37,317 bases of DNA, taken from assembly GCA_017555105.1 (NCBI GenBank), contig JAFZHB010000011.1, forward strand, positions 1 to 37,317, written 5' to 3'. The position numbers were made by a program, and so were the translations under genes. The notes beneath the pieces were generated by a model that saw nothing but the letters and a program-made list of their open reading frames with translations, did not search any database and was not told the origin of the DNA. Position 1 is the stretch's first letter. Every line of letters starts with the position of its first letter. This document shows positions 12,289-34,737 of the stretch, piece by piece. Source of the DNA: Alistipes sp. GTDB lineage: Bacteria; Bacteroidota; Bacteroidia; Bacteroidales; Rikenellaceae.

Positions 12289-13752
12289 TTATTGAATCTC
12301 CTTGATCGACTCGATGCCGTTGCGTGAGAGCGAGACGCGGAAACGCTTGTAGTCGGTCTTGCCATCGAACTGATACTGCATCACGATGTTCAGGAAGTAG
12401 ACCTTCTTGCAGTCGATGCGGCGCAGGTTGTTCTCCTCGTCGAGGCACGGCAGCGAGAGATAGGGGTTGTCCATCTTGTGGATCAGGTTGTTGACATTCA
12501 GACGGATGATATCGTTGATGCCGTCCGTGTGGTAGACATTGTTGGCGGCCATCTCTGCACGGTCGATGTGCACCCACTTGCGGTAGAGCAGCACCTTGTC
12601 GTCCATAATAAACTGCTCGGCGGGAGTGATCCTATCCTTTTCGCGCAATTGCATCACCTCCCGCGGGATTTTGCTTCGTTGCAGGAAGTCGACACCCTCC
12701 TTGATCCAACCGATGTTGCGCTCGCCGATCGAGATTTTCGCCTTGTTGTCGAAGTATTTGCTTCCCTTGCGGTGGGCGAAGTAGTAGCGGGCGAGCTCCT
12801 TAATGCGGTCCTTGCCCATGTAGCTGATCACCAGCACAATGAAGAATGGCCAGGTGAAGTTACCGTAGCGTTGCTGGAAGTAGAAACTCACGATGGTGGC
12901 GAAGATCATCGAGAGTCCGGCCGCGATGCTCAGGTAGAGCTGCTCGATCATCACGCCGTCGCGCTTCTTCGGCACACGCAGGTAGAGGGCGCTCTCGATA
13001 TACTTCTTCAGCACACCATGCGAGTAGATCAGGTCGCGGTTCTCGAGCGGATCATCCTCCTGCACCCTGCGATAATTCATCTGTGTGCGGTACTCCTCCT
13101 CGTGGCGAATCAGGCCGGCGGCCAATTCGATCTGCTCGGCATAATGCTCCTGATCCTGCATCAGGCGCTTAAGGAGGCGGTAGGTCGACTGGTTGAGCGT
13201 ATAGCTGATAAACTCGTCGCCGTAGTGGAAGCACGCCCGCACGGTCGGGCTGATGCTGGGGGTGTTGATGATCGGTCGAAGAGCTCGGTAGGCCTCGACG
13301 ATCGTGGTGGCATTGCGACAGAAGTTCTCGCTCAGCTGACAAACATCCTCTACGCGTTGCCCCTCCGAGCTGATGTGGTGTACCTCCTCGCGCAGTGCGC
13401 TCTTGACGATTGCAGCGAAGATCTTGATCTGCGTTTCATACTCGGCGATGGCCGTGCGTGTCGGATCACTCGCCATGCGCTCCATGGCCGTGCGTAGGCG
13501 TCCCGCAGGGGATTGCGCATCGCCCACGATGTCGCGCATGAGGAAGCGTGGCGTGATGAGGCGGACATTCGACTTCACATCGCGGTAGAAATCCGCCTTC
13601 GAGTAGGTCGATGGGTTGATGTCGAGCGAGTTGGGCACAAAGATCCACATATAGACCGAGAAATCGTTGTGGCGCATCTTGCGGCGCGTCACAAAGCCCA
13701 CCTTGAACTCGATGGAGAACTGATCGTGTATTTTGGTCGTAATGTCAATCAT
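12289..13752 (-). CDS. Conserved protein of unknown function with two TM helices
   Basis: I do not recognise a named family. The 487-residue protein starts with about 100 residues of mixed beta structure (IHDQFSIEFKVGFVTRRK, FSVYMWIFVPNSL). A long helical region follows to about residue 270. Two adjacent TM helices come next (LYLSIAAGLSMIFATIVSFYF and WPFFIVLVISYM), then a C-terminal region with charged helix and beta segments (KWVHIDRAEMAANNVYHTDG, FLNIVMQYQFDGKTDYKRFRVSLSRNG). Both ends are probably cytoplasmic. It is 32 bp after the SLC13 gene and last in the cluster with the CYTH proteins, so a role in the same process is likely. The sequence shows no catalytic motif I can name. Confidence 0.85.
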   Translation of the reverse strand: MIDITTKIHDQFSIEFKVGFVTRRKMRHNDFSVYMWIFVPNSLDINPSTYSKADFYRDVKSNVRLITPRFLMRDIVGDAQSPAGRLRTAMERMASDPTRTAIAEYETQIKIFAAIVKSALREEVHHISSEGQRVEDVCQLSENFCRNATTIVEAYRALRPIINTPSISPTVRACFHYGDEFISYTLNQSTYRLLKRLMQDQEHYAEQIELAAGLIRHEEEYRTQMNYRRVQEDDPLENRDLIYSHGVLKKYIESALYLRVPKKRDGVMIEQLYLSIAAGLSMIFATIVSFYFQQRYGNFTWPFFIVLVISYMGKDRIKELARYYFAHRKGSKYFDNKAKISIGERNIGWIKEGVDFLQRSKIPREVMQLREKDRITPAEQFIMDDKVLLYRKWVHIDRAEMAANNVYHTDGINDIIRLNVNNLIHKMDNPYLSLPCLDEENNLRRIDCKKVYFLNIVMQYQFDGKTDYKRFRVSLSRNGIESIKEIQ

Positions 13753-13784
13753 TGCACCCTGTATTTATCTCAAAAGTACCCTCT

Positions 13785-15464
13785 TTAGAAGAAGAGTCCC
13801 TCGGTGTAGCCCAACCAGCGCAGCACTGTTTCGCCCCAGACGATGATCATAACCCAACCGATGAGCATCATCGTGAAGCCGTAGCGGAAGGTGTCGCTCC
13901 AACTGTAATGGTTGGTCGTATAGAGCAGTGCTGCAGGTTTCGAGTTGAAGGGCAACACATAGACATGCTCGATGAGCAGCGCTACGGGGAAGGCGAGGCT
14001 CATAATCGGATAGCCGAACTTCTGTGCCACACCGATTGCAATCGGGATGAAGATCAGCGCACGCATGGTCTTCGACTGGAAGAGCAGCGCTGAGAACAAC
14101 ATCATGGCCGTCAAGAGCAGATACAATACCCAGAAGGGGGTGCTATCCGTTACGCCGAGGCTGTTGAACATCACATCGACCATGCTCTTGGGCAGTGCCG
14201 TGGCATCCAGACCCGTACCGATGGCGTAAGCACCTGCCGAGAAGAGCATCAAGTGCCACGGAATATCCACATCGTTCCATTTTACAACACCCACACCGGG
14301 CAGCAGCGCAACAACCGCGCCGATGAAGGCTACGGTGGTGGCGTCGATGCCGTGGAGCTTGTCGGTGGCCCACATCAGGAGCACACCTACGAAGATGGCG
14401 ATCGACTTGATCTCCTCCAGATTCATCTTACCCATCGAATCCAACTCGACGCGCAGCTTGGCCAGACCACCCTCGATCTGCGGCACGCGCTGCTCCTTCG
14501 GGATCGGGAAGATCACCTTCACACCGATCCACCAACCGATGAAGAGCAGGATTAGGGCGAGCGGGAAGGCCGCTATGAACCAGTCGCTGTAGCTGATCGA
14601 GGTGATACCCATTGCACCACCGATGAGCGAGGCAGCCAACAGGTTTGCGCCCGAGCCGGTGAGGAAACCGCTTGCACCGATGTTTACCTGGAAGAGGTTC
14701 TGCAATACGATGTTGCGGCCAAAGTTGTTGCGATTTCCGTTCGAGGCGCCATAGACTGCCGCTACGACCATGAAAATCGGCAGCAGAATGGCAGCCTTCA
14801 CCGTCGTGGCCGAGATAAAGGCCGAGAGTACGATGTTAATGACCAGGAAGCTGAAAAATACACCGCTGGCCGAGTGCCCGAAGCGCAGGACAAACCAGAG
14901 TGCCAGGCGGCGTGCCGCTTTGGTTTTAACAAGCATCGAGGCCAAGACAAACGAGAGAATGTTGAGCCACATCACCGGGTGTCCCAACTGTGCAAAGGCC
15001 TCCTTTTGGGAGGTGACCTCCGTGAGTACCAAGCCCAAGATCACGAGCAGCGCCGTGAGGTAATTGGGTATGGCCTCCGTAATCCAAAGGATGATGGCGG
15101 CGATGAAGATGGCGAGCATCGCATAGTTCGCTCGCGTGAACTCCTCGAAACCGTTTGTTTGGATAAACTGCACGGCCTTTTTGACACTCTTGTCGGGTGC
15201 GGGTTGCATCGTGACGAGCGTGCCGTCAGCCTGCTCAACCACCACTTCGGTCGGTATAAAATCGCTCTCCGTTAAGTTGTCGATAAAGGGAATATCCACA
15301 ACCCAATAGACCAAAATGAAGGCGATGATCGCCAAAGGTCCTCCCCAGCGCGCCATCCACTTCTCAAAAGTGGACTTCTGCATCTTGGGAAGTTTCTCGA
15401 TTTTATAGTTGTTCATATCCAGCGGATCGAACGCGGTAGTTTGTTGCAGCTCTTGCTCCTTCAT
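13785..15464 (-). CDS. SLC13/DASS-type anion transporter with altered signature motifs
   Basis: The 559-residue integral membrane protein has the divalent-anion:sodium symporter fold with two inverted halves. Recognisable landmarks include ILWITEAIPNYLTALLVILGLVL, LTGSGANLLAASLI (269-280) and the C-terminal substrate loop LPFNSKPAALLYTTNHYSWSD. In characterised DASS carriers, such as the bacterial succinate transporter VcINDY, two Ser-Asn-Thr motifs bind sodium and the carboxylate. Here the corresponding positions read SAT (218-220) and SKT (464-466), and the second STPPNA-like loop reads NSKPAA. The substrate is therefore probably not an ordinary dicarboxylate. A phosphate or polyanion is possible given the porin and CYTH neighbours. 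About 100 extra N-terminal residues include one TM helix and a periplasmic-looking segment. A strong terminator lies just upstream. Confidence 0.85.
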   Translation of the reverse strand: MKEQELQQTTAFDPLDMNNYKIEKLPKMQKSTFEKWMARWGGPLAIIAFILVYWVVDIPFIDNLTESDFIPTEVVVEQADGTLVTMQPAPDKSVKKAVQFIQTNGFEEFTRANYAMLAIFIAAIILWITEAIPNYLTALLVILGLVLTEVTSQKEAFAQLGHPVMWLNILSFVLASMLVKTKAARRLALWFVLRFGHSASGVFFSFLVINIVLSAFISATTVKAAILLPIFMVVAAVYGASNGNRNNFGRNIVLQNLFQVNIGASGFLTGSGANLLAASLIGGAMGITSISYSDWFIAAFPLALILLFIGWWIGVKVIFPIPKEQRVPQIEGGLAKLRVELDSMGKMNLEEIKSIAIFVGVLLMWATDKLHGIDATTVAFIGAVVALLPGVGVVKWNDVDIPWHLMLFSAGAYAIGTGLDATALPKSMVDVMFNSLGVTDSTPFWVLYLLLTAMMLFSALLFQSKTMRALIFIPIAIGVAQKFGYPIMSLAFPVALLIEHVYVLPFNSKPAALLYTTNHYSWSDTFRYGFTMMLIGWVMIIVWGETVLRWLGYTEGLFF

Positions 15465-15487
15465 GGTGCTTGAAAGTTGTTTGCGTT

Positions 15488-15518
15488 AAAAAAACGGAGG
15501 GGAATTGCTCCCCTCCGT
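15488..15518 (-). terminator. Intrinsic terminator between CYTH and SLC13 genes
   Basis: On the minus strand, ACGGAGGGGA (15509-15518) pairs perfectly with 15494-15503 around a 5-nt loop and runs into seven Ts. Only 23 nt remain before the SLC13 ATG at 15464. No promoter can fit between, so downstream genes depend on read-through or a promoter upstream of the hairpin. Confidence 0.9.
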
Positions 15519-15533
15519 TGTCATAGTCGTTGG

Positions 15534-16004
15534 TTATTTCCAATTCTTGTAGGGGTTCTTCATCAGCATCGAGTTGTAGTACTTCACATCGCCCGTCACC
15601 TCCTCGCCAAGCCATGCCGGCTTGATGAAGGCTTCGTCTTCCGATGCGAGCTCTACCTCGGCTACCGTCAAACCATCGTTGTCGCCGTAGAACTCGTCTA
15701 CCTCGAAGGTGTGCTCGCCCGACTTCACCAGATAGCGCGTCTTGTCGATCACACCCGGCTCGCAGATAGCCAACAGCTGCTCAGCCTCCTCGGTGGGAAT
15801 CTCCTTCTCCCACTCGAAACGGCTTGCACCGCTCTGGCTGCCGATGCCCTTGATGGTGATAAAGCCCTTCTCGCCCTTCACACGCACGCGGACCGTACGC
15901 TCGGGTACCGAGCTCAGGTAGCCCTGAATGATGCGGGTTGCCTTGCAGGCCTCCGGCTTGAAGTCGCCGGCCACCAGGAACTTTCTTTCAATCTCCTGTG
16001 CCAT
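15534..16004 (-). CDS. CYTH domain protein, triphosphate tunnel metalloenzyme
   Basis: The 156-residue protein matches bacterial CYTH/TTM enzymes over its full length. The defining ExExK-type motif is EIERKFLV at residues 4-11. It is followed by RIIQGYLS, the paired basic strand RTVRVRVKGEKGFITIKG, FEWEKEIP, IDKTRYLV, FEVDEFYGDNDGLTVAEVEL and WLGEEVTGD. These closely resemble the NeuTTM/CthTTM group, whose members hydrolyse inorganic tripolyphosphate with divalent metal (established). Hydrolysis of triphosphate is therefore likely here. It is soluble and cytoplasmic. It begins 3 bp after the CYTH-like gene, so the two are tightly coupled. A terminator follows its stop. Confidence 0.95.
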   Translation of the reverse strand: MAQEIERKFLVAGDFKPEACKATRIIQGYLSSVPERTVRVRVKGEKGFITIKGIGSQSGASRFEWEKEIPTEEAEQLLAICEPGVIDKTRYLVKSGEHTFEVDEFYGDNDGLTVAEVELASEDEAFIKPAWLGEEVTGDVKYYNSMLMKNPYKNWK

Positions 16005-16007
16005 AGC

Positions 16008-16652
16008 TTACTCGTTTGCCAAAGGTTTGTTCGACATACCGATCACGCGCTTGATAGCCTGCAGGTAGTTGATGTTCTCAACACCCTCCAAACCTACGTC
16101 GGCGATCGTCTTCTTGATATCCTCGATCTCGGTTGACTCCGAGTTGATCGTCACGACCTTTGCGCCGTTGATCAACACATTGCCTACCTCGCAGATCGTA
16201 TCGTTGACCATGTAGCCGAAGCGCTGCTTGTGTACGCGTACGGCAGCCAGGTCGGGGTGCTGCTCCACCATCGAGATAAACTCCTCGTAGGTGTAGACCT
16301 CCTTCGTCAGCTCGGGCATCTCCACCATGAATGCAGGGAATACCTCCTCCTTGAGCACCTGTGCGGCGATCGGGAACTCGCCCTTCATGAGCGGATTCCA
16401 CTGCTCGAGACCATCGACCGTCTGTACATAGGTCTTGATATCCATCTTGCCGTCACGAATCTTCGTGTTGTTGATGTCGTTCGTGCGCGAGATGATGTAA
16501 ATCTCGTCGCTCTGACGCTCCCATACCTTTTCAGGTACGGGAACCGACAGACGCGCCATACGCTTGTGTGCCTCGCAGAAGCACTGGCCAAACGAGCGGA
16601 ACTCGAAACGCGGTTTCGAGATCGCGCCAATCTCCATTTTCTCTTTTGCCAT
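16008..16652 (-). CDS. CYTH-like protein of unknown function
   Basis: This 214-residue protein is not a classical CYTH enzyme but shows a similar pattern of charged strands. KPRFEFRSFG is near the N-terminus. EIYIISRTNDINNTKIRDG carries Arg56, Lys64 and Arg66, and MDIKTYV carries Lys73. GLEQWNPLMKGEFPI and a later ICEVGNVLING/KVVTINSES region suggest alternating barrel strands. I infer a divergent triphosphate-tunnel-like fold, perhaps binding rather than cleaving a polyanion. No signal peptide or TM segment is visible. It lies 15 bp after the porin gene and 3 bp before the CYTH gene, so the three probably form one mRNA. Fold prediction would test this. Confidence 0.75.
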   Translation of the reverse strand: MAKEKMEIGAISKPRFEFRSFGQCFCEAHKRMARLSVPVPEKVWERQSDEIYIISRTNDINNTKIRDGKMDIKTYVQTVDGLEQWNPLMKGEFPIAAQVLKEEVFPAFMVEMPELTKEVYTYEEFISMVEQHPDLAAVRVHKQRFGYMVNDTICEVGNVLINGAKVVTINSESTEIEDIKKTIADVGLEGVENINYLQAIKRVIGMSNKPLANE

Positions 16653-16667
16653 GGTTCTCTCTACAAA

Positions 16668-18161
16668 TTAGAAGGCGATCTGGAAGCGCATTGCCAGCAT
16701 CTGGTAGTCTACACCACCCTTGCCAACAACCTCCGACGACTTCTTCGTGGGCTTGCCCTTCTCGTCAAGACCTACATAGAACTTACCCTTGTCGGCGCCC
16801 TTACCGTTGGCGTACTTGTCCTGATCGATCGTCGACCAGTTGAGAACGATCTTCACATTCTTGGTCGGGTAGTAGTTCAGACCCAACTCGAACATCTTGG
16901 CCTTACCGCCCGTGATACCGCTCACGAACTTGCCGTCCTTGTCGAACTTAGCGTCGTTGAGGTCCATCTCCTGATAGCGAGCTGCGAGCTCGAGGTCACC
17001 CCAGCTGCGACCGGCCTTCGTACGCGTGTACTTCGCACCGTTCGAGTCATAAGCCTGCTTACCGCCGAAGAGCAGGTACGAACCCTGCAGGTACCAACCA
17101 TCACCGGTGAAGGTCTCGAAGCCCTTCTTGCCATAAACAACCTTATTTACAGCCTCGTTCATGTGAGCCGTGCGCGAGATGTAAGCACCCTCATAACGCA
17201 GACCCTTGTAGTGACCGGCAACCTCGACCGTCCAAGCCGTCTCGTGATCCAGACCAATCAGGTCACCCGAGTTTACATACTTCTTGCGGTTGATGTCCGT
17301 CGAGTTACGAGCGTCCATTGCACCACCAAATACATCGAGCTCGCTGAACTTGCCCTCGTCGATAGCATCCATGATGTCCTCATCCTCCTCGATCAGCTCC
17401 TCGAAGTCCTTCACCTTGAAGCCCGTCGTCTTGGGGTTGCGATACGAGAATGCAGCACCGATGTGCAACGATGCGTCGGGCTTGTTGATCGGGCGGAATA
17501 CAACCTTACCGGTGTACGACAGACCCTCGCTCATACCGTAGTCCTTGTTGTAGTCCTGCATGAAGCCCAGAGCCTCCGAATCCTTCAACTCGGGACCAAA
17601 TACACCGGCCGAAGCCCAAATCCACTTGTGAGCATAGCGTACATTGAAACCAAGGTGACGCGACGGAGCCAGCGAGGTAACCATCGGGCGCTCCATGAAT
17701 ACGAGGTAGCGCGAGGTGGTGTTACGCTGGATCGAGAAGTTCTCCTTGAAGTTACCGGCCTTGAACTCGAAGCCCTTCAGACCCGTGAAGGCGATGTAAG
17801 CGTCCTTCAGCTCGGGCGTACCGCTCGTCCAGTCGGTATCGAGCTCACCGTACCAGTTCTTGTCGAGCTGACCCTTGATCGCGAAACGCGTGCGACGCAG
17901 CGACATACCGTCACCAATCTTATCAGCGTAGCCCGGCTCGCCGAAGAATACGGCAGCGTCGGCCTGGATGCGGATGTCGAACCACATCTTGTAGTTCGCC
18001 TCCTTGTTCTGGAATACCAGCACGCCGTCCTGAGCTACAGCCTCAACGGGAACGGTCTTCACCTCCTGACCATACTGGTTCACCTCCTTAGCGGCGGGTT
18101 CCTGAGCAGATGCTGCTACACCAAAGCATACAAGTGCCATCGAAAGTAAAATCTTTTTCAT
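16668..18161 (-). CDS. OprO/OprP-like phosphate-selective outer-membrane porin
   Basis: The 497-residue protein has a signal peptide (MKKILLSMALVCFGVAASAQ) and ends in Phe after alternating strands (MLAMRFQIAF), the usual mark of an outer-membrane beta-barrel. The barrel pattern LRRTRFAIKGQLDKNWYGELDTDW, AYIAFTGLKGFEFKAGNFKENFS, then MERPMVTSLAPSRHLGFNVRY is that of the phosphate-selective porin O/P family. Such porins favour anions, often phosphate or polyphosphate (known for Pseudomonas OprP/OprO). An acidic stretch at about residues 250-265 (EELIEEDEDIMD) is unusual for an anion channel. It leads the cluster with the two CYTH-type genes, and a -7 element lies upstream. Confidence 0.9.
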   Translation of the reverse strand: MKKILLSMALVCFGVAASAQEPAAKEVNQYGQEVKTVPVEAVAQDGVLVFQNKEANYKMWFDIRIQADAAVFFGEPGYADKIGDGMSLRRTRFAIKGQLDKNWYGELDTDWTSGTPELKDAYIAFTGLKGFEFKAGNFKENFSIQRNTTSRYLVFMERPMVTSLAPSRHLGFNVRYAHKWIWASAGVFGPELKDSEALGFMQDYNKDYGMSEGLSYTGKVVFRPINKPDASLHIGAAFSYRNPKTTGFKVKDFEELIEEDEDIMDAIDEGKFSELDVFGGAMDARNSTDINRKKYVNSGDLIGLDHETAWTVEVAGHYKGLRYEGAYISRTAHMNEAVNKVVYGKKGFETFTGDGWYLQGSYLLFGGKQAYDSNGAKYTRTKAGRSWGDLELAARYQEMDLNDAKFDKDGKFVSGITGGKAKMFELGLNYYPTKNVKIVLNWSTIDQDKYANGKGADKGKFYVGLDEKGKPTKKSSEVVGKGGVDYQMLAMRFQIAF

Positions 18162-18224
18162 GTTACTTGAATTTAGGTTAATAAAAAGTAATGTTAATTG
18201 AGTGTTGTTTTTAATAGTTTAATA

Positions 18225-18256
18225 CAAAAGTAAAGATAAATCTTTAGATGTGCAAT
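18225..18256 (-). promoter_or_regulatory. Promoter of the porin gene cluster
   Basis: On the minus strand, ATTG (18253-18256), a 20-nt spacer and TACTTTTG (18225-18232) form a near-consensus Bacteroidota promoter. The leader to the porin ATG is about 60 nt long and AT-rich. Confidence 0.7.
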
Positions 18257-18264
18257 TTTTTTTG

Positions 18265-18295
18265 GCAAAAAAGAAGGGAGTCGCATGACCCCCTT
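18265..18295 (-). terminator. Hairpin upstream of the porin promoter, ending in T-run on the minus strand
   Basis: Nine bases at 18287-18295 pair with 18274-18282 (one mismatch) around a GCAT loop. The minus strand then runs into Ts. The GH105 gene that ends at 18308 transcribes leftward into this hairpin, so it terminates the GH106-GH105 unit. Confidence 0.8.
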
Positions 18296-18307
18296 GTTCG
18301 TATTTTC

Positions 18308-19441
18308 TTATAATTTGTAGACTTCCGATCCGGCCAGCAGGAAACAGCCCGTGCCGTAGTCCTCAAAGTCAGGCTTCGAGGTGTAGGTCACCGGTTGGCC
18401 ATCTTTGGGTTCTTTACCGGTGCCCTGCACATAGCCTAAGAAGCCGTTTTCGTGAACGGCCTGCTCGACCATGGCGTTCCAGGCCTTCGTCACGAAGGGA
18501 AGATACTCCTCGCGCTTCAGCACGCCGTTGTTGATGCCCCAAGCCATGCCATAGACAAAGAGCGCCGTGCCCGTGAGCTCCTTGCCACCGAAGTTGTTCG
18601 GGTCGTGGAGGCTGACATTCCAGAAGCCATCCTCGCGCTGACACGCCTTGAGTGCCTTACACATCGCCTGCAGGTCGCCGATGTAGAGATCTCGGTGGGC
18701 AGCATCCTGCGGCAACTCCTGCAGCACGCGTACGAGCGCAGCTACTACCCAGCCATTGCCGCGCGACCAGTAGCAATCCTCGCCATTCGGCTCTTGGTAG
18801 GGAGGCGTGAAATCCTTGTCGCGCCACCAAAGGCCCTCGCGCTTGTTGTAGAGACCGCCGGCGAGCGTGTTGCGCGCCCAGGCGTACATCTCGTAAGCCT
18901 TCTCATAGTAACGCGCATCCCCCTGCAGCGTACCCATCTTCGCGAGCACGGGCATACCCATTTGAATGGCATCGATCCAGGTCCAATCCTCCACCTGCGG
19001 CGTGTTGATCAGCATGTTGCAGAGCGCGAGGCTCTTGCGCAGGCGCTCGGGGTGCGGTTCGAGGCGATAGAGGTCGATGTAGGTCTGCGCGCAGCAGTAG
19101 TTGTCGGCGTTGCGCGTCGTGGTGTCGTCGCGGCGCATACCCCACTGGTGGAACTCCGCCCAGCGCGTGGCGTAGTCGTAGTAGCGATTCTCGGGCGAGA
19201 TGGCATAGAGCGCCATCAACCCCTCGTAGTAGACGGCGCGCGTCCAGATGTTCGACTCGTAGACCTTCTTGCGCGAGTAGTAGGGCATGACGGCCGTTGG
19301 GTCGGGGTATTTGCGCAGCATCAGGTAGTCGTTTACGCGCTTCGTCACCTCGAGAATCTCGGTGCGTGAGGGGAGTGTTTGTGCGTGCGAGATTGACGCA
19401 GCGAAACAGCCGCAGAGTAGAGCAAGGAGCAGTTTTTTCAT
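18308..19441 (-). CDS. GH105 unsaturated rhamnogalacturonyl hydrolase
   Basis: GH105 enzymes remove the unsaturated galacturonyl residue left by pectate or rhamnogalacturonan lyases. The 377-residue protein has a signal peptide (cleavage near residue 20, SISHAQ), so it acts in the periplasm. The alpha6/alpha6 barrel signatures are present. NADNYCCAQTYIDLY is at 111-125, WTWIDAIQMGMP holds the likely catalytic Asp157, and SRGNGWVVAAL is at 226-236. GTALFVYGMAWGINNG and the C-terminal DYGTGCFLLAGSEVY also match. Length is typical. It starts 19 bp after the GH106 gene, and together they would strip rhamnogalacturonan side groups. GH88 is a less likely relative. Confidence 0.93.
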   Translation of the reverse strand: MKKLLLALLCGCFAASISHAQTLPSRTEILEVTKRVNDYLMLRKYPDPTAVMPYYSRKKVYESNIWTRAVYYEGLMALYAISPENRYYDYATRWAEFHQWGMRRDDTTTRNADNYCCAQTYIDLYRLEPHPERLRKSLALCNMLINTPQVEDWTWIDAIQMGMPVLAKMGTLQGDARYYEKAYEMYAWARNTLAGGLYNKREGLWWRDKDFTPPYQEPNGEDCYWSRGNGWVVAALVRVLQELPQDAAHRDLYIGDLQAMCKALKACQREDGFWNVSLHDPNNFGGKELTGTALFVYGMAWGINNGVLKREEYLPFVTKAWNAMVEQAVHENGFLGYVQGTGKEPKDGQPVTYTSKPDFEDYGTGCFLLAGSEVYKL

Positions 19442-26120: not shown

Positions 26121-27311
26121 CTATCGCAGTAACTCGAAGAGCGCAATTATCAGACCGAGAAGCGTCACGCTGATTGAGGCATATTTGATTACCTTCGATT
26201 TCTGCATGATCTTGTGCGTGTTGCCATAGACGCGCTGCTTGACACGCGAGACGCGTTTGTCGTGCTGATGCAGCTCCTTGATGGCAATCTCCAGATCGGC
26301 GGCAAAGTCCTTTAGTAGCTCAATCTGCAGCTCCTCCATGTAGCGGAATGAGCTGTGGGCGAGCGCCTGCTCCTTCTCACTGCGGTGCAGTTCGATCTGG
26401 CGGCGCAGCTCCTCGGGGAACTTCGTGATCGAGTTACTCAGCGGATCGGCCGGGGGTGTTGCTGTAGGATGCTGCTGCGACTCCATCTCGGGCACCTCGA
26501 TCGTGCGCTCCAACACGGGGAGGTAGTTGTAATAGGGGTAGCCGATCAGCGGTTGCGAGTAGGCACCCAGACGCACGATGTTGCAGCGGCGCTGCTCGTC
26601 GTCGGAGGAGATCAGGTGGAGACGGATGTAGCGAATCTGCATGGGGCGATCCAGGTGGAAGACCTGCCAGCCGTTGTAGCCGTCGCGCAGCGTGTCGTAG
26701 AGAACCTGCCAACGCACGGTCGAGCCATCCGTAGCAACCACCTCATCCTGCTCGTTGCAGTGCAGGTCGCCCGCATAGTCCGAAACCAAGAGTCGGTAGC
26801 CGACCTTGATGTCACACGCCTCGCGCTTGTCGCAACCGCGGTTGTCCCAGATCAGGAACTGAATGGTTTGCACCGTGTAGAGCGATGCGTCGTTGTTGTT
26901 GCTCCCCTTCAGGTCGAAGGTGAGGTAGTTCGGCGCGACAACGGTGGTGCAGCCGCTGAACTCCGAGTATTCGAGCTTTGGAATACCCTTTTCGTTGAGG
27001 AAGGGCGAGGTGACCATTTTGGGCGAGAGCACGCGGCGGCAGTTGCGCACATCGGGACACTCCTTGCAGCGAATCAACTGGATCGAGGGGTCGTACTGCT
27101 CCTCGTTGTAAGAGCGACCATCCTCCCAGCAGCGCGGGCAGGGACGCTCGACGACGAAGAGCGGCAGGCCGTTATCGTTGCGCTCAGCGAGCATCAGGTT
27201 TCGGTTGTAGTCGGGGCAGGTGCGCTTGTTGATGCTGCACTTCAAATCGCAGATCGCCTTGTTAAACTCCGCGCAACCCTCCTGGTAGCATTTGTGGCTG
27301 TTTTTGTTCAT
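26121..27311 (-). CDS. Tail-anchored protein with Cys-rich N-terminus and discoidin-like domain
   Basis: I do not recognise a named family. The 396-residue protein has no signal peptide. Ten cysteines occur within residues 8-91, in pairs such as CDLKC, CPRC and CKEC, suggesting one or more zinc-binding modules. Residues about 114-254 read like a discoidin/F5-8C beta-sandwich (EYSEFSG, YLTFDLKG, IQFLIWD, GWQVFHLDRPMQIRYIRLHLISSD, VRLGAYS). A helical, charged region (about 300-365) may be coiled coil. One TM helix ends the protein (about 374-395, KYASISVTLLGLIIALFELL), placing the rest in the cytoplasm. It is paralogous to the gene 19 bp upstream and last in the two-component operon. Function is unknown. 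Confidence 0.8.
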   Translation of the reverse strand: MNKNSHKCYQEGCAEFNKAICDLKCSINKRTCPDYNRNLMLAERNDNGLPLFVVERPCPRCWEDGRSYNEEQYDPSIQLIRCKECPDVRNCRRVLSPKMVTSPFLNEKGIPKLEYSEFSGCTTVVAPNYLTFDLKGSNNNDASLYTVQTIQFLIWDNRGCDKREACDIKVGYRLLVSDYAGDLHCNEQDEVVATDGSTVRWQVLYDTLRDGYNGWQVFHLDRPMQIRYIRLHLISSDDEQRRCNIVRLGAYSQPLIGYPYYNYLPVLERTIEVPEMESQQHPTATPPADPLSNSITKFPEELRRQIELHRSEKEQALAHSSFRYMEELQIELLKDFAADLEIAIKELHQHDKRVSRVKQRVYGNTHKIMQKSKVIKYASISVTLLGLIIALFELLR

Positions 27312-27330
27312 GGTTTTCAGCGATTTGATG

Positions 27331-28542
27331 TTATTTGAAGAGGTGAATCAGGAGTCCCAACAGGTAGGGAAGACCCATCGCTATGAGCGACCACCAGAAG
27401 GCGGTCGTATCCTCGCGATTGCCCTTGTCGAGCTGGGCGTTCACCGGATCGAGCACCACGCGCTCCATATTCTTCGGATCGCGCTCCACGATGGCGATGT
27501 CGTCGGCAATGCTGGCCAGGATCTGGTAGATGTTGCGCCAGTCGAGTTGCACGAGGTTGGGGTCGGTGGGGTCTTGGAAGGCTTCAACCTTCTTTGCAAT
27601 CGTGGTGTTGATGCCGTCGAGGTAGCGACGGTCGATGGCAAAGGTCATACCCGGTTCTTCGACCGTGATCCCCTGCTTATGGCTGCCGCGGCGACCCTGC
27701 TGCTGTGCTCCGGCAATGATGTTGTGGGCAAGCTCGGACTCGCGGTCGGCGATCAGCTGGATGAAATTCATAGTGTCGTAGATGCGCTTCGAGAGGGGAA
27801 AACCGTCGCCCAACTCGATCTCTGTGCGCGTAGGATCTACGGCGTAGTAGCACATCGATCGCGAGGGGTCGATCGCAATCTTCTCGCCCGACGGAGTCGG
27901 CACGATCGCCTCCTCCTGCACATAGCGACGCAGCGCCTCGAAGTCGATGGCCGAGGCTACTTTGTGGGTGTAGGCACGCAGGCGCACCATGTGGAAGGCG
28001 TTGTTCTTGAGGCCTGCCATGCAGTGGATGCGGATGTAGCGAATCCCCTTCAAACCCTCCTTAAGGTGGATGAACTGCCAGTTGCGACACCACCCCGTGC
28101 GCTGGCTGTCGAAGATGAGCTTCCACTCCCAGCAATCCTTGTCGGTCTGCGCCGTGGCGAAATCCTCCGCTACGAGTACGCGGTAGTGATAACGGCGTTG
28201 TGCCCCCTCGCGGCCGTGGTTTTTGTCCTCGATCGGGTCGAAGAGCAGGAGCTGAATCAGACCCAGGTCGCGCTCCTCGTCGGGGGTGATCTCGCCCAGG
28301 TCGATCGTGAGCGCTGCGGGCGTATGCACACCGCAGTAACCCGACTTGCCGTCGTAACCGCTAAATTCGGTGCTGGTCAACTGCTCGTAGTGGTTGCAGA
28401 GCTCGAGTACGGGTTTGTCGGCTGCCAGATCGCTGACTTCGTCGCGCGGGAACTGCGGATCGAGAAACTGCTCGATGCGCACATCCTGCATGCGGGTTGC
28501 AGCCTTGTGGTCAAAGGGTTGAGTATTTTTCGAGGTTTCCAT
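27331..28542 (-). CDS. Tail-anchored protein with discoidin-like domain
   Basis: The 403-residue protein has no signal peptide and a single C-terminal TM helix (about 382-401, WWSLIAMGLPYLLGLLIHLF). Residues about 56-193 form a predicted discoidin-like sandwich. TSTEFSGYDG, ALTIDLGE, IQLLLFD, YRVLVAEDFA, WQFIHLKEGLKGIRYIRIH and MVRLRAYTHK align with the neighbouring protein. The middle (about 195-375) is predicted mixed/helical with no known motif. It lacks the Cys-rich head of its paralogue. It lies 36 bp after the response regulator gene. I infer a membrane-anchored cytoplasmic sensor or effector controlled by the two-component system. F5/8C domains normally bind sugars or lipids outside the cell, so the topology is odd. 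Confidence 0.8.
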   Translation of the reverse strand: METSKNTQPFDHKAATRMQDVRIEQFLDPQFPRDEVSDLAADKPVLELCNHYEQLTSTEFSGYDGKSGYCGVHTPAALTIDLGEITPDEERDLGLIQLLLFDPIEDKNHGREGAQRRYHYRVLVAEDFATAQTDKDCWEWKLIFDSQRTGWCRNWQFIHLKEGLKGIRYIRIHCMAGLKNNAFHMVRLRAYTHKVASAIDFEALRRYVQEEAIVPTPSGEKIAIDPSRSMCYYAVDPTRTEIELGDGFPLSKRIYDTMNFIQLIADRESELAHNIIAGAQQQGRRGSHKQGITVEEPGMTFAIDRRYLDGINTTIAKKVEAFQDPTDPNLVQLDWRNIYQILASIADDIAIVERDPKNMERVVLDPVNAQLDKGNREDTTAFWWSLIAMGLPYLLGLLIHLFK

Positions 28543-28578
28543 TGTTGGGATCGGTTCGTTTGTTTCTTCGGGGTGGGG

Positions 28579-29214
28579 TTACAGATCTACGATGCCGTTG
28601 CGGATGGCGTAGACCACCAGTGCGGCGCCGTTCTTGCAGCCGCTCTTTTCGAGGATGTTAGCGCGGTGCTTGTCGACCGTGCGCTTCGAGATGAAGAGCT
28701 CGTCGGCGATCTCTTGGTTCGAGAGGCCCCGACAGATCCCCACTACGATCTCGCGCTCGCGTTCCGAGAGGAGCTCCTCGTTCTGATCGGGTTGCGAGTG
28801 GAGGTTGCGCGAGATGCTCTGCAGGAGTTGAGCCGAGAAGTAGTTTCCGCCGTTGGCTACCACCTCGATGGCCTCGATCACCTCGTCGATGGCCGAGTCT
28901 TTCAGCAAGAAGCCGCGTGCTCCGGCCTTGACCATGCGCGAGTAGTAGCTCTCCTCGCCAAACATCGAGAGGGTGATGATCTTCATCTCGGGTCGCTCGC
29001 TGAGGGCACGCTCGGTGGTCTGTGCACCGTCGATGCCGCCCATCGAGAAGTCCATGAATACCAGGTCGGCCTCCAACGAGGGCAGCAGGGCAAGAAACTC
29101 CTCTCCGGAGGCTGCCTCGGCAACAATTTCGCAGTCGAGGCTGTGCTCCAGCAGGCCGCGCAGCCCCATGCGGAAGAGGGCATGATCGTCAACTAATGCA
29201 ATGCGATAGCTCAT
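28579..29214 (-). CDS. NarL/FixJ-type response regulator
   Basis: The 211-residue protein has a receiver domain with the acidic pair Asp9-Asp10 (LVDDHALFR), phospho-acceptor Asp55 (VFMDFSMGG) and the conserved Lys in GFLLKDS. A LuxR-type helix-turn-helix follows at about 147-205 (LSEREREIVVGICRGLSNQEIADELFISKRTVDKHRANIL). It would bind DNA as a phosphorylated dimer. The start overlaps the kinase stop by 4 bp (ATGA), so the two form a cognate pair. The two discoidin-like genes downstream are the obvious operon partners. Confidence 0.96.
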   Translation of the reverse strand: MSYRIALVDDHALFRMGLRGLLEHSLDCEIVAEAASGEEFLALLPSLEADLVFMDFSMGGIDGAQTTERALSERPEMKIITLSMFGEESYYSRMVKAGARGFLLKDSAIDEVIEAIEVVANGGNYFSAQLLQSISRNLHSQPDQNEELLSEREREIVVGICRGLSNQEIADELFISKRTVDKHRANILEKSGCKNGAALVVYAIRNGIVDL

Positions 29215-30200
29215 AGTCTTTCTTTTCTTTTGCGGATCCCTTTGCGGGCGGGTTTTGGTTGGCTCTCCACCTCAAACGGTATGGTCACCACGGCCTGCAT
29301 ACCACACCCCTCCTTCGAGGTGATCTGGCTGCTGCCACCCAGCGAGCCGATGCGCGAGGCGATGTTCGAGAGTCCCATGCCCAGATCACTCATCACCTCG
29401 GCTTTGAAGCCGCGTCCGTCGTCGGCATACTCCAGATGCAGCGCCTCGGGTGTATGGGTGAGGGCGAGGGTAATCGTATGACAGGCGGCGTGCTTGAGCG
29501 AGTTGTGTATCAGCTCGCAGATCACGCGGTAGAGAATCACCTCGACATCCGTCTCGAAGCGTTCGCGGTTGAGGTTGGTCGTGAAACGGATCTTGACGCG
29601 GTGGATTGCTACACTCTTGTCGATGAAGTTTTGGATGCCGCGTGCCAGGCCGAAGTCGTTCAGCACATGGGGCGAGAGGTTGTTCGAGATCTCGCGAATC
29701 GAGCGGATCGCCTCGTCGATGATGTAGGTGGTGTTGCCCAGCAGCTCGCGGCGTGCGGGATCCTGCTCCTCGCGCACGAGGGTCGTGAGCGACATCTTGG
29801 CCGACGAGAGCAGCGGTCCGAGCCCGTCGTGCAACTCCTTCGAGAAGTTCGAACGCGCCTTCTCCTCGGTGCGGAGCACGGCGGTCAGGATGCGGCGGTT
29901 CCAGAGTTGTCGTTGGAGGTTGAGGCGATCGATGTACTTAAAGAGCTTGTGTGTGTACATCACGCCGATCGAAAGGCAGATCGAGACGATGATGCCCAGA
30001 TCGGCCAGAAAGTAGCGCGGAATGGGCAACCCCTCGAGGATCAGATACTGCACCATGCGCTCGACCGAGAGGATCGAGAATCCGATGATGAAGAGCACCC
30101 AGATGGCCTTGTATTTGGTTGCCCGCACCAACTTCAGGGCATAGACCGTAGCCACGCTCTGCACCAGAATTGCGATGATCAGCAGAATCTTGATTACCAT
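29211..30200 (-). CDS. Sensor histidine kinase (HisKA_3, NarX/DesK type)
   Basis: The 329-residue protein has three N-terminal TM helices (about 3-22, 31-50 and 65-83) with short loops and no large periplasmic domain. The signal is therefore probably membrane-embedded or cytoplasmic. The dimerisation/phosphotransfer helix has the H-box SKELHDGLGPLLSSAKMSL with His124. ATP-binding elements follow: CELIHNSLKHA (N box), YADDGRGF (G1) and MGLSNIASRIGSLGG (G2). It pairs with the NarL-type regulator, whose ATG overlaps its stop. A minus-strand -7 element (TATATTTG, 30226-30233) lies 25 nt upstream of the start. Confidence 0.95.
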   Translation of the reverse strand: MVIKILLIIAILVQSVATVYALKLVRATKYKAIWVLFIIGFSILSVERMVQYLILEGLPIPRYFLADLGIIVSICLSIGVMYTHKLFKYIDRLNLQRQLWNRRILTAVLRTEEKARSNFSKELHDGLGPLLSSAKMSLTTLVREEQDPARRELLGNTTYIIDEAIRSIREISNNLSPHVLNDFGLARGIQNFIDKSVAIHRVKIRFTTNLNRERFETDVEVILYRVICELIHNSLKHAACHTITLALTHTPEALHLEYADDGRGFKAEVMSDLGMGLSNIASRIGSLGGSSQITSKEGCGMQAVVTIPFEVESQPKPARKGIRKRKERL

Positions 30201-30225: not shown

Positions 30226-30273
30226 CAAATATAGAATATTTTTGGGGAAATCGGAAAATATCCACTATTTTTG
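30226..30273. promoter_or_regulatory. Divergent promoter region: kinase operon and ftsX
   Basis: Minus-strand TATATTTG (30226-30233) points at the histidine kinase. Plus-strand TATTTTTG (30266-30273) points at ftsX, with TTTG at 30241-30244, 21 nt upstream. The two promoters share about 50 bp, so regulation could be mutually linked. Confidence 0.65.
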
Positions 30274-30310: not shown

Positions 30311-31192
30311 ATGAAAGACGACAAACGCTTGAAGCGCAAGGTGCGCAACTCCTACCTGATCTCCACCCTCAGCATGGCCCTCGTGCTCTTTTTGCTGGGC
30401 TCGGTGGGGTATCTGATGATGGCCGCCATGAAGGTGGCCGACACGCTGCAAGAGAGCGTGGAGGTGATGGTCGAACTCAAACGCGGCTACACCTACGACG
30501 AGCGTGACGCCCTGGTGGAGCGTCTCTCGCGGGAGGAGATGGTTGCCGATTTGCGCTTTGTGTCGAAGGAGGAGAAGGCCGACGATGCGGAGTTTCGCAA
30601 GGTCTTTGCCGGGAGTTTCGAAGAGGTGTTGGGCGAGAACCCGCTGCTCGACTCCTACGAGGTGAAGTTGACGGCCGCGTCGGAGGATCGCGCTCAGGTG
30701 GATCTCTTCCTGGCCGAGTTGGAACAGTTCTCGGCGGTGGATCGTGCCACCTATCCGGCACAGATGGCCGAACGCCTCCACCACACCGTGGGGCGTATCC
30801 GCTTTGTGCTGCTGCTCTTTGGCGGTGCGCTGCTGGCGATCTCGATCATCCTGCTCAACAATACGGTGCGTTTGGCGATCTTCTCGAAACGCTACATCAT
30901 CAATACGATGAAGCTCGTCGGCGCGACGAAGTGGTTCATCATGCGCCCCTTCCTCGCCAGCAGCATCTCGCAGGGGCTCTGGTCGGGCCTTTTGGCGGCT
31001 GCACTCTTTGCTGCGGCGCTCTATGGTGTGGGTGAGGTAGTGCCGGAGCTCACCACGCTGGCCGACCTGCACCGCGCAGCCATCATCCTGGGGGGCATGA
31101 TTGGCTTTGGAGTGCTCCTCTCGCTCCTCTTCACGACCTTTGCCGTGAATAAATTTGTCAACATGAAGTCGAACAAGATATACCTGTATTAA
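30311..31192 (+). CDS. ftsX: Cell division protein FtsX
   Basis: FtsX is the membrane half of the FtsEX ABC-like complex that activates peptidoglycan hydrolases at the septum. The 293-residue protein has a cytoplasmic N-terminus and a first TM helix at about 15-36 (YLISTLSMALVLFLLGSVGYLMMAA). A large periplasmic domain follows. The FtsX-like permease domain with three TM helices completes it (RFVLLLFGGALLAISIILLNNTVRLAIFSKRYIINTMKLVGAT and the last pair). The gene for the ATPase FtsE is not beside it, as often in Bacteroidota. It lies 2 bp before the DUF3098-like gene. Confidence 0.94.
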   Translation: MKDDKRLKRKVRNSYLISTLSMALVLFLLGSVGYLMMAAMKVADTLQESVEVMVELKRGYTYDERDALVERLSREEMVADLRFVSKEEKADDAEFRKVFAGSFEEVLGENPLLDSYEVKLTAASEDRAQVDLFLAELEQFSAVDRATYPAQMAERLHHTVGRIRFVLLLFGGALLAISIILLNNTVRLAIFSKRYIINTMKLVGATKWFIMRPFLASSISQGLWSGLLAAALFAAALYGVGEVVPELTTLADLHRAAIILGGMIGFGVLLSLLFTTFAVNKFVNMKSNKIYLY

Positions 31193-33879: not shown

Positions 33880-34737
33880 TTAGGCCTCCTCGTCGAGGTG
33901 AGCCTGCTCCACCTGCTCGGTAATGGCACGGAAGTAGCTCTTTGAGACGGGGATCGGTTTGGCCGATGGATGGCTCAAGAAGATCTTGGCGCGATCGTGT
34001 TCTTTCTTATAACATTTGATCTTCCCCGTGTGGACGATGTACGAGCGGTGACAGCGAATGAGCGGTGTGCCGGCGAGCATCTCCTCGATGGTTTGGGTCT
34101 TGCAGCGGAGCATGTAGCTCACGAGGCGACCCTCCAACTCGTAGTAGATGCGTACATAGTTATCCTGCGACTCTACGAAGTAGAGCGATTCGACGCCAAT
34201 CGACATCTTCAGCGTGCCGTTGTTGTCGTTCAGGTGGAGCTGTCGTGGGTTTTCGGGTTGCTTCTCGGTCGTGCGGTTCAGTCGCATCAGGTTGAGTTCC
34301 TCCTTCTGCTCGCGATAGATCATGTAGAGGGTGATCAAGGCGTATGGGATGGCCAGGATGAGCGTCACGCAGAGGACGACGCGGACAATCCAGATCGGCG
34401 TGAGGAGTTCAGATTCGGGTTCGAAGTTGCTGGTGAAGAGGATATAGAGCAGCGCGATGAGCAACGACTCCCCTCCGATCCAGACGAGGTAGGTTGTCAT
34501 CTTGAGCGGGTGGGCACGGTGGTAGAGGGCAAAAAGTACCTTACTACCAAGCAACAGCACCACGGCTATGAGGTGGAAAACAATGGTTTGTACTCCCTTG
34601 CTTAACGGGTGGAAACCGAACCACGCTGTGGCCGAAAAAGGCTGATAGAGTGCCAGGAAAAGAACAGAGAAGAGCGCTACGAAGAGCACGCACTCCAACA
34701 GATACTTTTTGCGCAATAGAAACTTTGGTACCTCCAT
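33880..34737 (-). CDS. LytTR DNA-binding protein with membrane N-terminus
   Basis: The 285-residue protein has four predicted TM helices (about 15-35, 48-68, 78-100 and 116-138). A linker then leads to a LytTR domain (about 173-275): FVESQDNYVRIYYELEGRLVSYMLRCKTQTIEEML, then LIRCHRSYIVHTGKIK. It has no receiver domain, unlike AgrA/LytR-type response regulators. It belongs to the membrane-bound LytTR class of regulators, which respond to a signal in or near the membrane. The signal and targets are unknown. An 18-bp palindrome (34791-34808) lies in the 111-bp gap to fabF and is a candidate operator. Confidence 0.9.
   Translation of the reverse strand: MEVPKFLLRKKYLLECVLFVALFSVLFLALYQPFSATAWFGFHPLSKGVQTIVFHLIAVVLLLGSKVLFALYHRAHPLKMTTYLVWIGGESLLIALLYILFTSNFEPESELLTPIWIVRVVLCVTLILAIPYALITLYMIYREQKEELNLMRLNRTTEKQPENPRQLHLNDNNGTLKMSIGVESLYFVESQDNYVRIYYELEGRLVSYMLRCKTQTIEEMLAGTPLIRCHRSYIVHTGKIKCYKKEHDRAKIFLSHPSAKPIPVSKSYFRAITEQVEQAHLDEEA

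Follow-up and report, generated by a model that had tools for sequence, protein, structure and literature searches.

The locus analysed here raises the question of what two paralogous membrane proteins do at the end of a two-component operon, and whether they and the kinase constitute one system. We have examined a 37,317-nt stretch of Alistipes sp. DNA (the window), in which four ORFs of the minus strand follow one another in the order kinase, regulator, P1 and P2. The first encodes a sensor histidine kinase of 329 aa (29211..30200) and the second a NarL/LuxR-type response regulator of 211 aa (28579..29214). P1 (27331..28542, 403 aa) combines a discoidin-like domain at about residues 45-195 with a helical region and a transmembrane (TM) helix. 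P2 (26121..27311, 396 aa) starts with a Cys-rich N-terminal part (C82-x2-C85-x5-C91) and continues with a discoidin-like domain at about residues 110-255, followed by a helical region and a TM helix. The kinase and regulator genes overlap by 4 bp; regulator and P1 are 36 bp apart, and P1 and P2 19 bp. The ORF coordinates thus match the four-gene layout described in the initial annotation.

The operon is flanked upstream by two divergent genes, ftsX (30311..31192, plus strand), which is the immediate neighbour of the kinase, and a DUF3098 gene; downstream lie tdk and murA, both convergent. The names ftsX, tdk and murA were assigned by eye from sequence, and relatives of these genes were mapped in the compared loci. 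Positions 33880-34737, separated from the kinase operon by a few genes, encode a LytTR-type DNA-binding protein with an N-terminal membrane part recognised by eye. Elsewhere in the window (12289-19441), genes for GH88, Porin_O_P and a sodium:sulfate symporter are clustered together with a 487-aa ORF that has no Pfam match; these genes may form an uptake cluster for glycans or anions.

The Pfam search identified HisKA_3 (7.2e-8) and HATPase_c (2.6e-10) domains in the kinase, and a receiver (Response_reg) plus a GerE (NarL-type) domain in the regulator. Hydropathy placed three TM segments in the first 86 kinase residues, with two overlapping windows for the third, and the protein ends in a basic tail. 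This bore out the earlier description of a kinase with three TM helices and no periplasmic sensor domain. The kinase core scored 78 of 450 bits against NCBIfam LiaS. The ftsX gene adjoins the kinase in all three loci where the pair is linked to it; among the 12 kinase loci fetched without a linked pair (L075-L086, which include the kinase locus of G147), it does so in 5. A role in envelope sensing is suggested by the type of kinase together with its ftsX neighbour.

We have then compared the two paralogues with known domains. BLASTP detected homology between P1 and P2 over their discoidin-like parts (E 3e-10) and their profile-profile comparison gave 99.8%, confirming that the two proteins are paralogous. 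No Pfam or NCBIfam family was reached above its cut-off by either protein. P2 matched PF00754 (F5_F8_type_C) weakly, with 17.8 bits for a Pfam cut-off of 28.2, and P1 gave no match; two canonical F5/8C reference domains have Pfam scores of 64 and 53 bits. Of the 12 aligned members, seven had a PF00754 match with E no higher than 1, the best being 9e-7, and the P2 protein of G275 was the one member above the cut-off (29.4 bits). When compared with these two reference domains using hhalign, the P1 group reached 96.7%, the P2 group 85.9% and two distant singletons 48.5%. Against the PDB, a profile of eight members (A7) retrieved the CBM32 domain 5zu6 (E 1.4e-4); a profile of twelve members (A4) retrieved coiled-coil chains only, and single proteins gave nothing useful. 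The discoidin case was carried by the relatives, since these match PF00754 better than the window proteins do. Based on profile homology, P1 and P2 are both predicted to carry a divergent discoidin (F5/8C, CBM32-like) domain, and the relationship originally proposed for the two proteins was supported, weakly in the window proteins and more clearly in their relatives. The profile homology with PF00754 is accompanied by several differences, namely the lack of a signal peptide, the C-terminal anchor, the Cys-rich insert of P2 and Pfam scores that mostly stay below the cut-off.

Known F5/8C domain proteins are mostly secreted. Judging from their sequences, P1 and P2 would depart from this usual extracellular location. 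Hydropathy gave one C-terminal TM segment in each (P1 381-399, P2 374-392) and non-hydrophobic N-termini in both. The C-terminal hydrophobic segment was found in 12 of 12 pair members, but the single tail anchor is not universal, because P2 of locus L003 has two such segments. A missed signal peptide was ruled out, because the open frames extend upstream by only ~12 codons (415 vs 403 aa for P1 and 408 vs 396 aa for P2), which is too short. Both hydropathy and frame length thus agreed with the single C-terminal TM helix without signal peptide first noted for the two proteins. Of the 12 pair members, 8 are net positive over the 15 residues preceding the tail TM; the values are +4 for P2 and -1 for P1 of the window. 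Two distant singletons (G353 and G413) display the domain followed by two TM segments, which are separated by a ~23-residue loop, and a long polar tail, a layout that fits a cytoplasmic (N-in) domain. The discoidin domains of P1 and P2 are therefore likely to lie on the cytoplasmic side, as had been suggested. Could they instead be exported by an unusual route and act outside the cell? The canonical relatives that were found are GH43 enzymes, which are usually secreted. However, an N-terminal hydrophobic segment was absent from all 14 family members examined by hydropathy and, as described above, the open frames of the window leave no space for a signal peptide; we consider such export highly improbable.

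The order kinase-regulator-P1-P2 was found again in two further genomes of the same genus as that of the window, G215 (locus L002) and G164 (L003), whose P1 proteins are 60 and 39% identical to that of the window. This recurrence indicated that the operon is more than a chance arrangement. The successive gaps in the four-gene unit measure 24, 199 and 36 nt in L002 and 5, 30 and 10 nt in L003, the range across loci being 5-199 nt. The 199-nt regulator-P1 gap of L002 (5805-6003) is a run of near-repeats (ccgaacccac...), and the other two loci have 30-36 nt at that place.

Regarding expression, the promoter-like element TATATTTG (30226..30233, minus strand) ends 25 nt before the kinase start. It fits the -7 element of Bacteroidota promoters. 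Of 14 loci, nine have TATATTTG upstream of the kinase, at -30 to -49, and a tenth has the variant TATCTTTG at -32. Two of the four others, L083 and L086, were scanned from a misplaced kinase start; L079 is outside the 14. In the window, L002 and L003, the 150 nt preceding P1 contain no such element. With an element before the kinase and none before P1, the pair of the window most likely uses the kinase promoter, and P1 and P2 are most likely co-transcribed with the kinase. The 199-nt gap of L002 could be home to another kind of promoter. A scan for sigma-70 promoters and terminators returned no promoters and 5 terminator-like elements, against 3.7 expected.

Profile searches of 268 family genomes matched seven genomes with the P1 profile and seven with the P2 profile, corresponding to eight different genomes. 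Two matches were rejected: that of the P1 profile (A1) in G039 is a GH43 protein with an F5/8C domain, and that of the P2 profile (A2) in G227 falls on a sigma-factor-like ORF, as judged by eye. The tandem pair is thus present in 6 of the 268 family genomes (G000, G215, G164, G147, G275 and G282), and P1 and P2 stand side by side in all six genomes with a true match to either. When used alone against 101 relatives, P1 matched only in the genome of the window. At the order level, matches were obtained in 5 of 393 genomes: the window, the real relatives G413 and G353, and two (G090 and G529) taken as generic given their very long frames of 1279 and 4309 codons. At the phylum level, 8 of 345 genomes matched. 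Besides the window, these comprised G676, rejected as a generic GH43 match, and G762, G841, G666, G671, G689 and G786, taken as generic because their frames were long or broken and the matches partial.

The initial annotation had read kinase, regulator and both paralogues as a single system, and had proposed a comparison of gene neighbourhoods. In this comparison the paralogues stayed together in six of six genomes, but the kinase and regulator lay directly upstream of them in three only (the window, G215 and G164). The pair of G147 is located on contig C5, with kinase and regulator on another contig (C39). Two other genomes, both incomplete, show no close kinase or regulator: G275 (59% complete) has only distant ones, at 33 and 32% identity, and in G282 (82% complete) neither was found; missing data may account for this. 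Conversely, the kinase was found in 244 of the 268 family genomes (cut-off 1e-40), including 105 of 110 good genomes, and 240 of the 244 kinase-bearing genomes have no pair. It was also found in 92 of 178 order genomes (1e-30), at least 42 of the matches spanning from residue 5 or less to residue 302 or more. No P1 or P2 match was detected near the kinase in the 12 fetched loci L075-L086. These results did not support the single-system reading: three of the six pairs are unlinked to the kinase, the outcome that the initial annotation had named as refuting, and the kinase is in 244 of 268 genomes but the pair in six. We rejected an obligate system made of kinase and pair.

The slot after the regulator is variable. 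In G020, G024, G027 and G034 it is directly occupied by a porin-like gene and an SpmAB-like gene, the latter of the CD0519/CD1768 family, and G164 has the pair between this porin gene and the regulator. The pair of G282 comes after the porin and SpmAB-like genes, with no kinase there. In two loci (L036 11107-13278 and L031 6522-8662) the porin-like gene and the SpmAB-like membrane gene adjoin the kinase-regulator genes or the discoidin pair. A search of the genome of the window for the SpmAB-like gene returned nothing at 1e-10. Given this variable slot, the two paralogues behave like a cassette: in a few lineages, a core two-component system is accompanied by this accessory two-gene unit.

Such variable placement also suits the idea that the pair is a passenger that merely shares the kinase transcript and has an unrelated function. 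The position between regulator and porin in G164 and the kinase-free arrangement of G282 point in that direction, as does the unlinked pair of G275, which has a promoter-like element of its own (TACCTTTG at -58). Against it, the pair directly follows the regulator in three genomes, and we regard the passenger explanation as unlikely, if deserving of some weight.

The separability of pair and kinase bears equally on a role as kinase modulator. LiaFSR-type kinases, which have no periplasmic sensor, work with accessory membrane proteins (PMC7492735). By analogy with LiaF or VraT, P1 and P2 might contact the cytoplasmic side of the TM sensor of the kinase and thereby control its activity; the kinase is of that very type, and the pair lies within its operon in three genomes. 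The LiaFSR and VraTSR systems (PMC7492735, PMC9380581) combine, as here, a kinase without periplasmic sensor, a NarL-type regulator and a membrane accessory gene in the operon. Unlike those accessory genes, P1 and P2 end the operon, are missing from most kinase genomes and occur without the kinase, and neither had a LiaF-family match in Pfam or NCBIfam at E up to 1. We have also compared the sensor part (residues 1-95) and tail among the best 29 other kinases by score, out of 244 genomes. Sensor similarity to the window kinase was 71 and 77% in the two pair carriers and overlapped with that of the 27 non-carriers (63-80%), and the basic tail occurred in carriers and non-carriers, so that a special sensor or tail in carriers was rejected. 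Since all but four of the genomes with the kinase have no pair and no peculiar sensor appeared among the 29, a LiaF-like modulator is disfavoured; the two incomplete pair genomes (59 and 82%) that show no close kinase also speak against it, and we hold it to be distinctly unlikely.

The pair itself is cohesive. The P1 and P2 trees showed mirrored branching, with ((window, G215), G164) and (G275, G282) in both, all of these inner groups being starred. The deeper five-member clades (88/91 for P1 and 86/88 for P2) fell below the star. Both G147 copies stood on long unplaced branches, and the six-member group was recovered in 78% of bootstrap trees for P1 and in 22% for P2. From the mirrored branching, the duplication seems to predate the divergence of the pair-bearing genomes, with the two copies kept together. 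The CxxCx5C motif is present in five of six P2 proteins (absent in G147), the five having a further cysteine upstream, and these cysteines could be a Cys4 metal site. P1 conserves C49 and H73 in six of six and C70 in five of six.

Between the window and G215, identity is lowest for P2 (57%) and P1 (60%), followed by ftsX (73%), kinase (75%), regulator (78%), tdk (87%) and murA (88%). This faster divergence, together with the patchy occurrence of the pair in the family and its changing neighbourhoods, would be in line with a conflict or defence module, that is, a membrane-attached sensor and effector directed against phages or mobile elements, for which the kinase operon is one landing site. 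The distant homologues add to this. That of G353 (L074 8042-16965) has an AbiJ_NTD4 gene (PDC-S32) on one side and ZacABC genes on the other; that of G413 (L073 8036-13409) is separated by 18 nt from a preceding gene in which a HEPN-like RNNYTH motif was recognised by eye, and has an MntA-like nucleotidyltransferase nearby. A HAD gene after the G282 pair weakly matches a PADLOC hydrolase model (4.6e-5). However, no PADLOC model matched P1, P2 or four relatives, the G353 protein included, at E up to 1, and no defence gene was recognised adjoining the six tandem pairs, two of these neighbours being covered by the PADLOC scan. In addition, the genes before the G413 homologue match no PADLOC model, phages gave no match to P1 as query, and plasmids none to the G353 protein as query. 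The G353 and G413 singletons do share with P1 and P2 the domain (98% profile match to both), a helical linker and a membrane part without signal peptide, but they are single genes with a different membrane part, made of two TM helices, and a C-terminal part after it, and just one adjoins known defence genes. A defence function is accordingly also improbable in our estimation, to much the same degree as the passenger explanation; the two overlap, so the probabilities of the alternatives do not sum to one.

Discoidin-type folds inside the cell have precedents in APC10, the N-terminal domain of XRCC1 and IFT25. P1 and P2 would share the intracellular location with these proteins, which are set apart by being eukaryotic and soluble. 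Among the papers listed in the literature searches, none was on a cytoplasmic tail-anchored discoidin pair. The pair is real and has no existing name.

As to its function, we tentatively favour, with somewhat less than even confidence, an inner-membrane P1/P2 complex with cytoplasmic discoidin domains that serves as envelope-stress effector, encoded by a cassette under the kinase operon promoter. P1 and P2 would form a two-protein complex anchored in the inner membrane by both C-terminal TM helices, and in this lineage the accessory cassette supplies the last two genes of the conserved kinase-regulator operon. An envelope change would be sensed by the kinase, and the regulator would in response activate the operon in which it is encoded. 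P1 and P2 would then build up at the inner membrane face, where the discoidin folds may bind a cytoplasmic or inner-leaflet ligand (a glycan- or lipid-linked precursor, or a protein), and binding would lead to protection or remodelling of the envelope. Complex formation, the envelope-stress role, the ligand and autoregulation are guesses from the architecture, and the effector reading is our choice among open options. Its support comes from the tandem arrangement and mirrored branching of the pair, the four-gene order seen in three genomes, the placement of TATATTTG, the kinase without periplasmic sensor divergent from ftsX, and the topology features of the pair members and distant singletons. 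Weighing on it are the 240 of 244 family genomes that have the kinase without the pair, the ordinary sensor and tail of the carrier kinases, the three pairs away from the kinase, the presence of ftsX in only 5 of the 12 other kinase loci, the -1 charge of the window P1, the second hydrophobic segment of L003 P2 and the long gap of L002.

A broader reading, which we consider possible but doubtful, is that of a paired family of intracellular membrane-anchored discoidin proteins, with a metal-binding Cys site in P2, that would read ligands at the inner face and could be plugged into various circuits, and whose related singletons may serve in defence islands. Discoidin domains are regarded as modules for extracellular binding and, if true, a cytoplasmic tail-anchored pair without signal peptides would widen their use in bacteria. 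Since the pair of Alistipes-type genomes adjoins a widespread kinase, its study would be informative on both.
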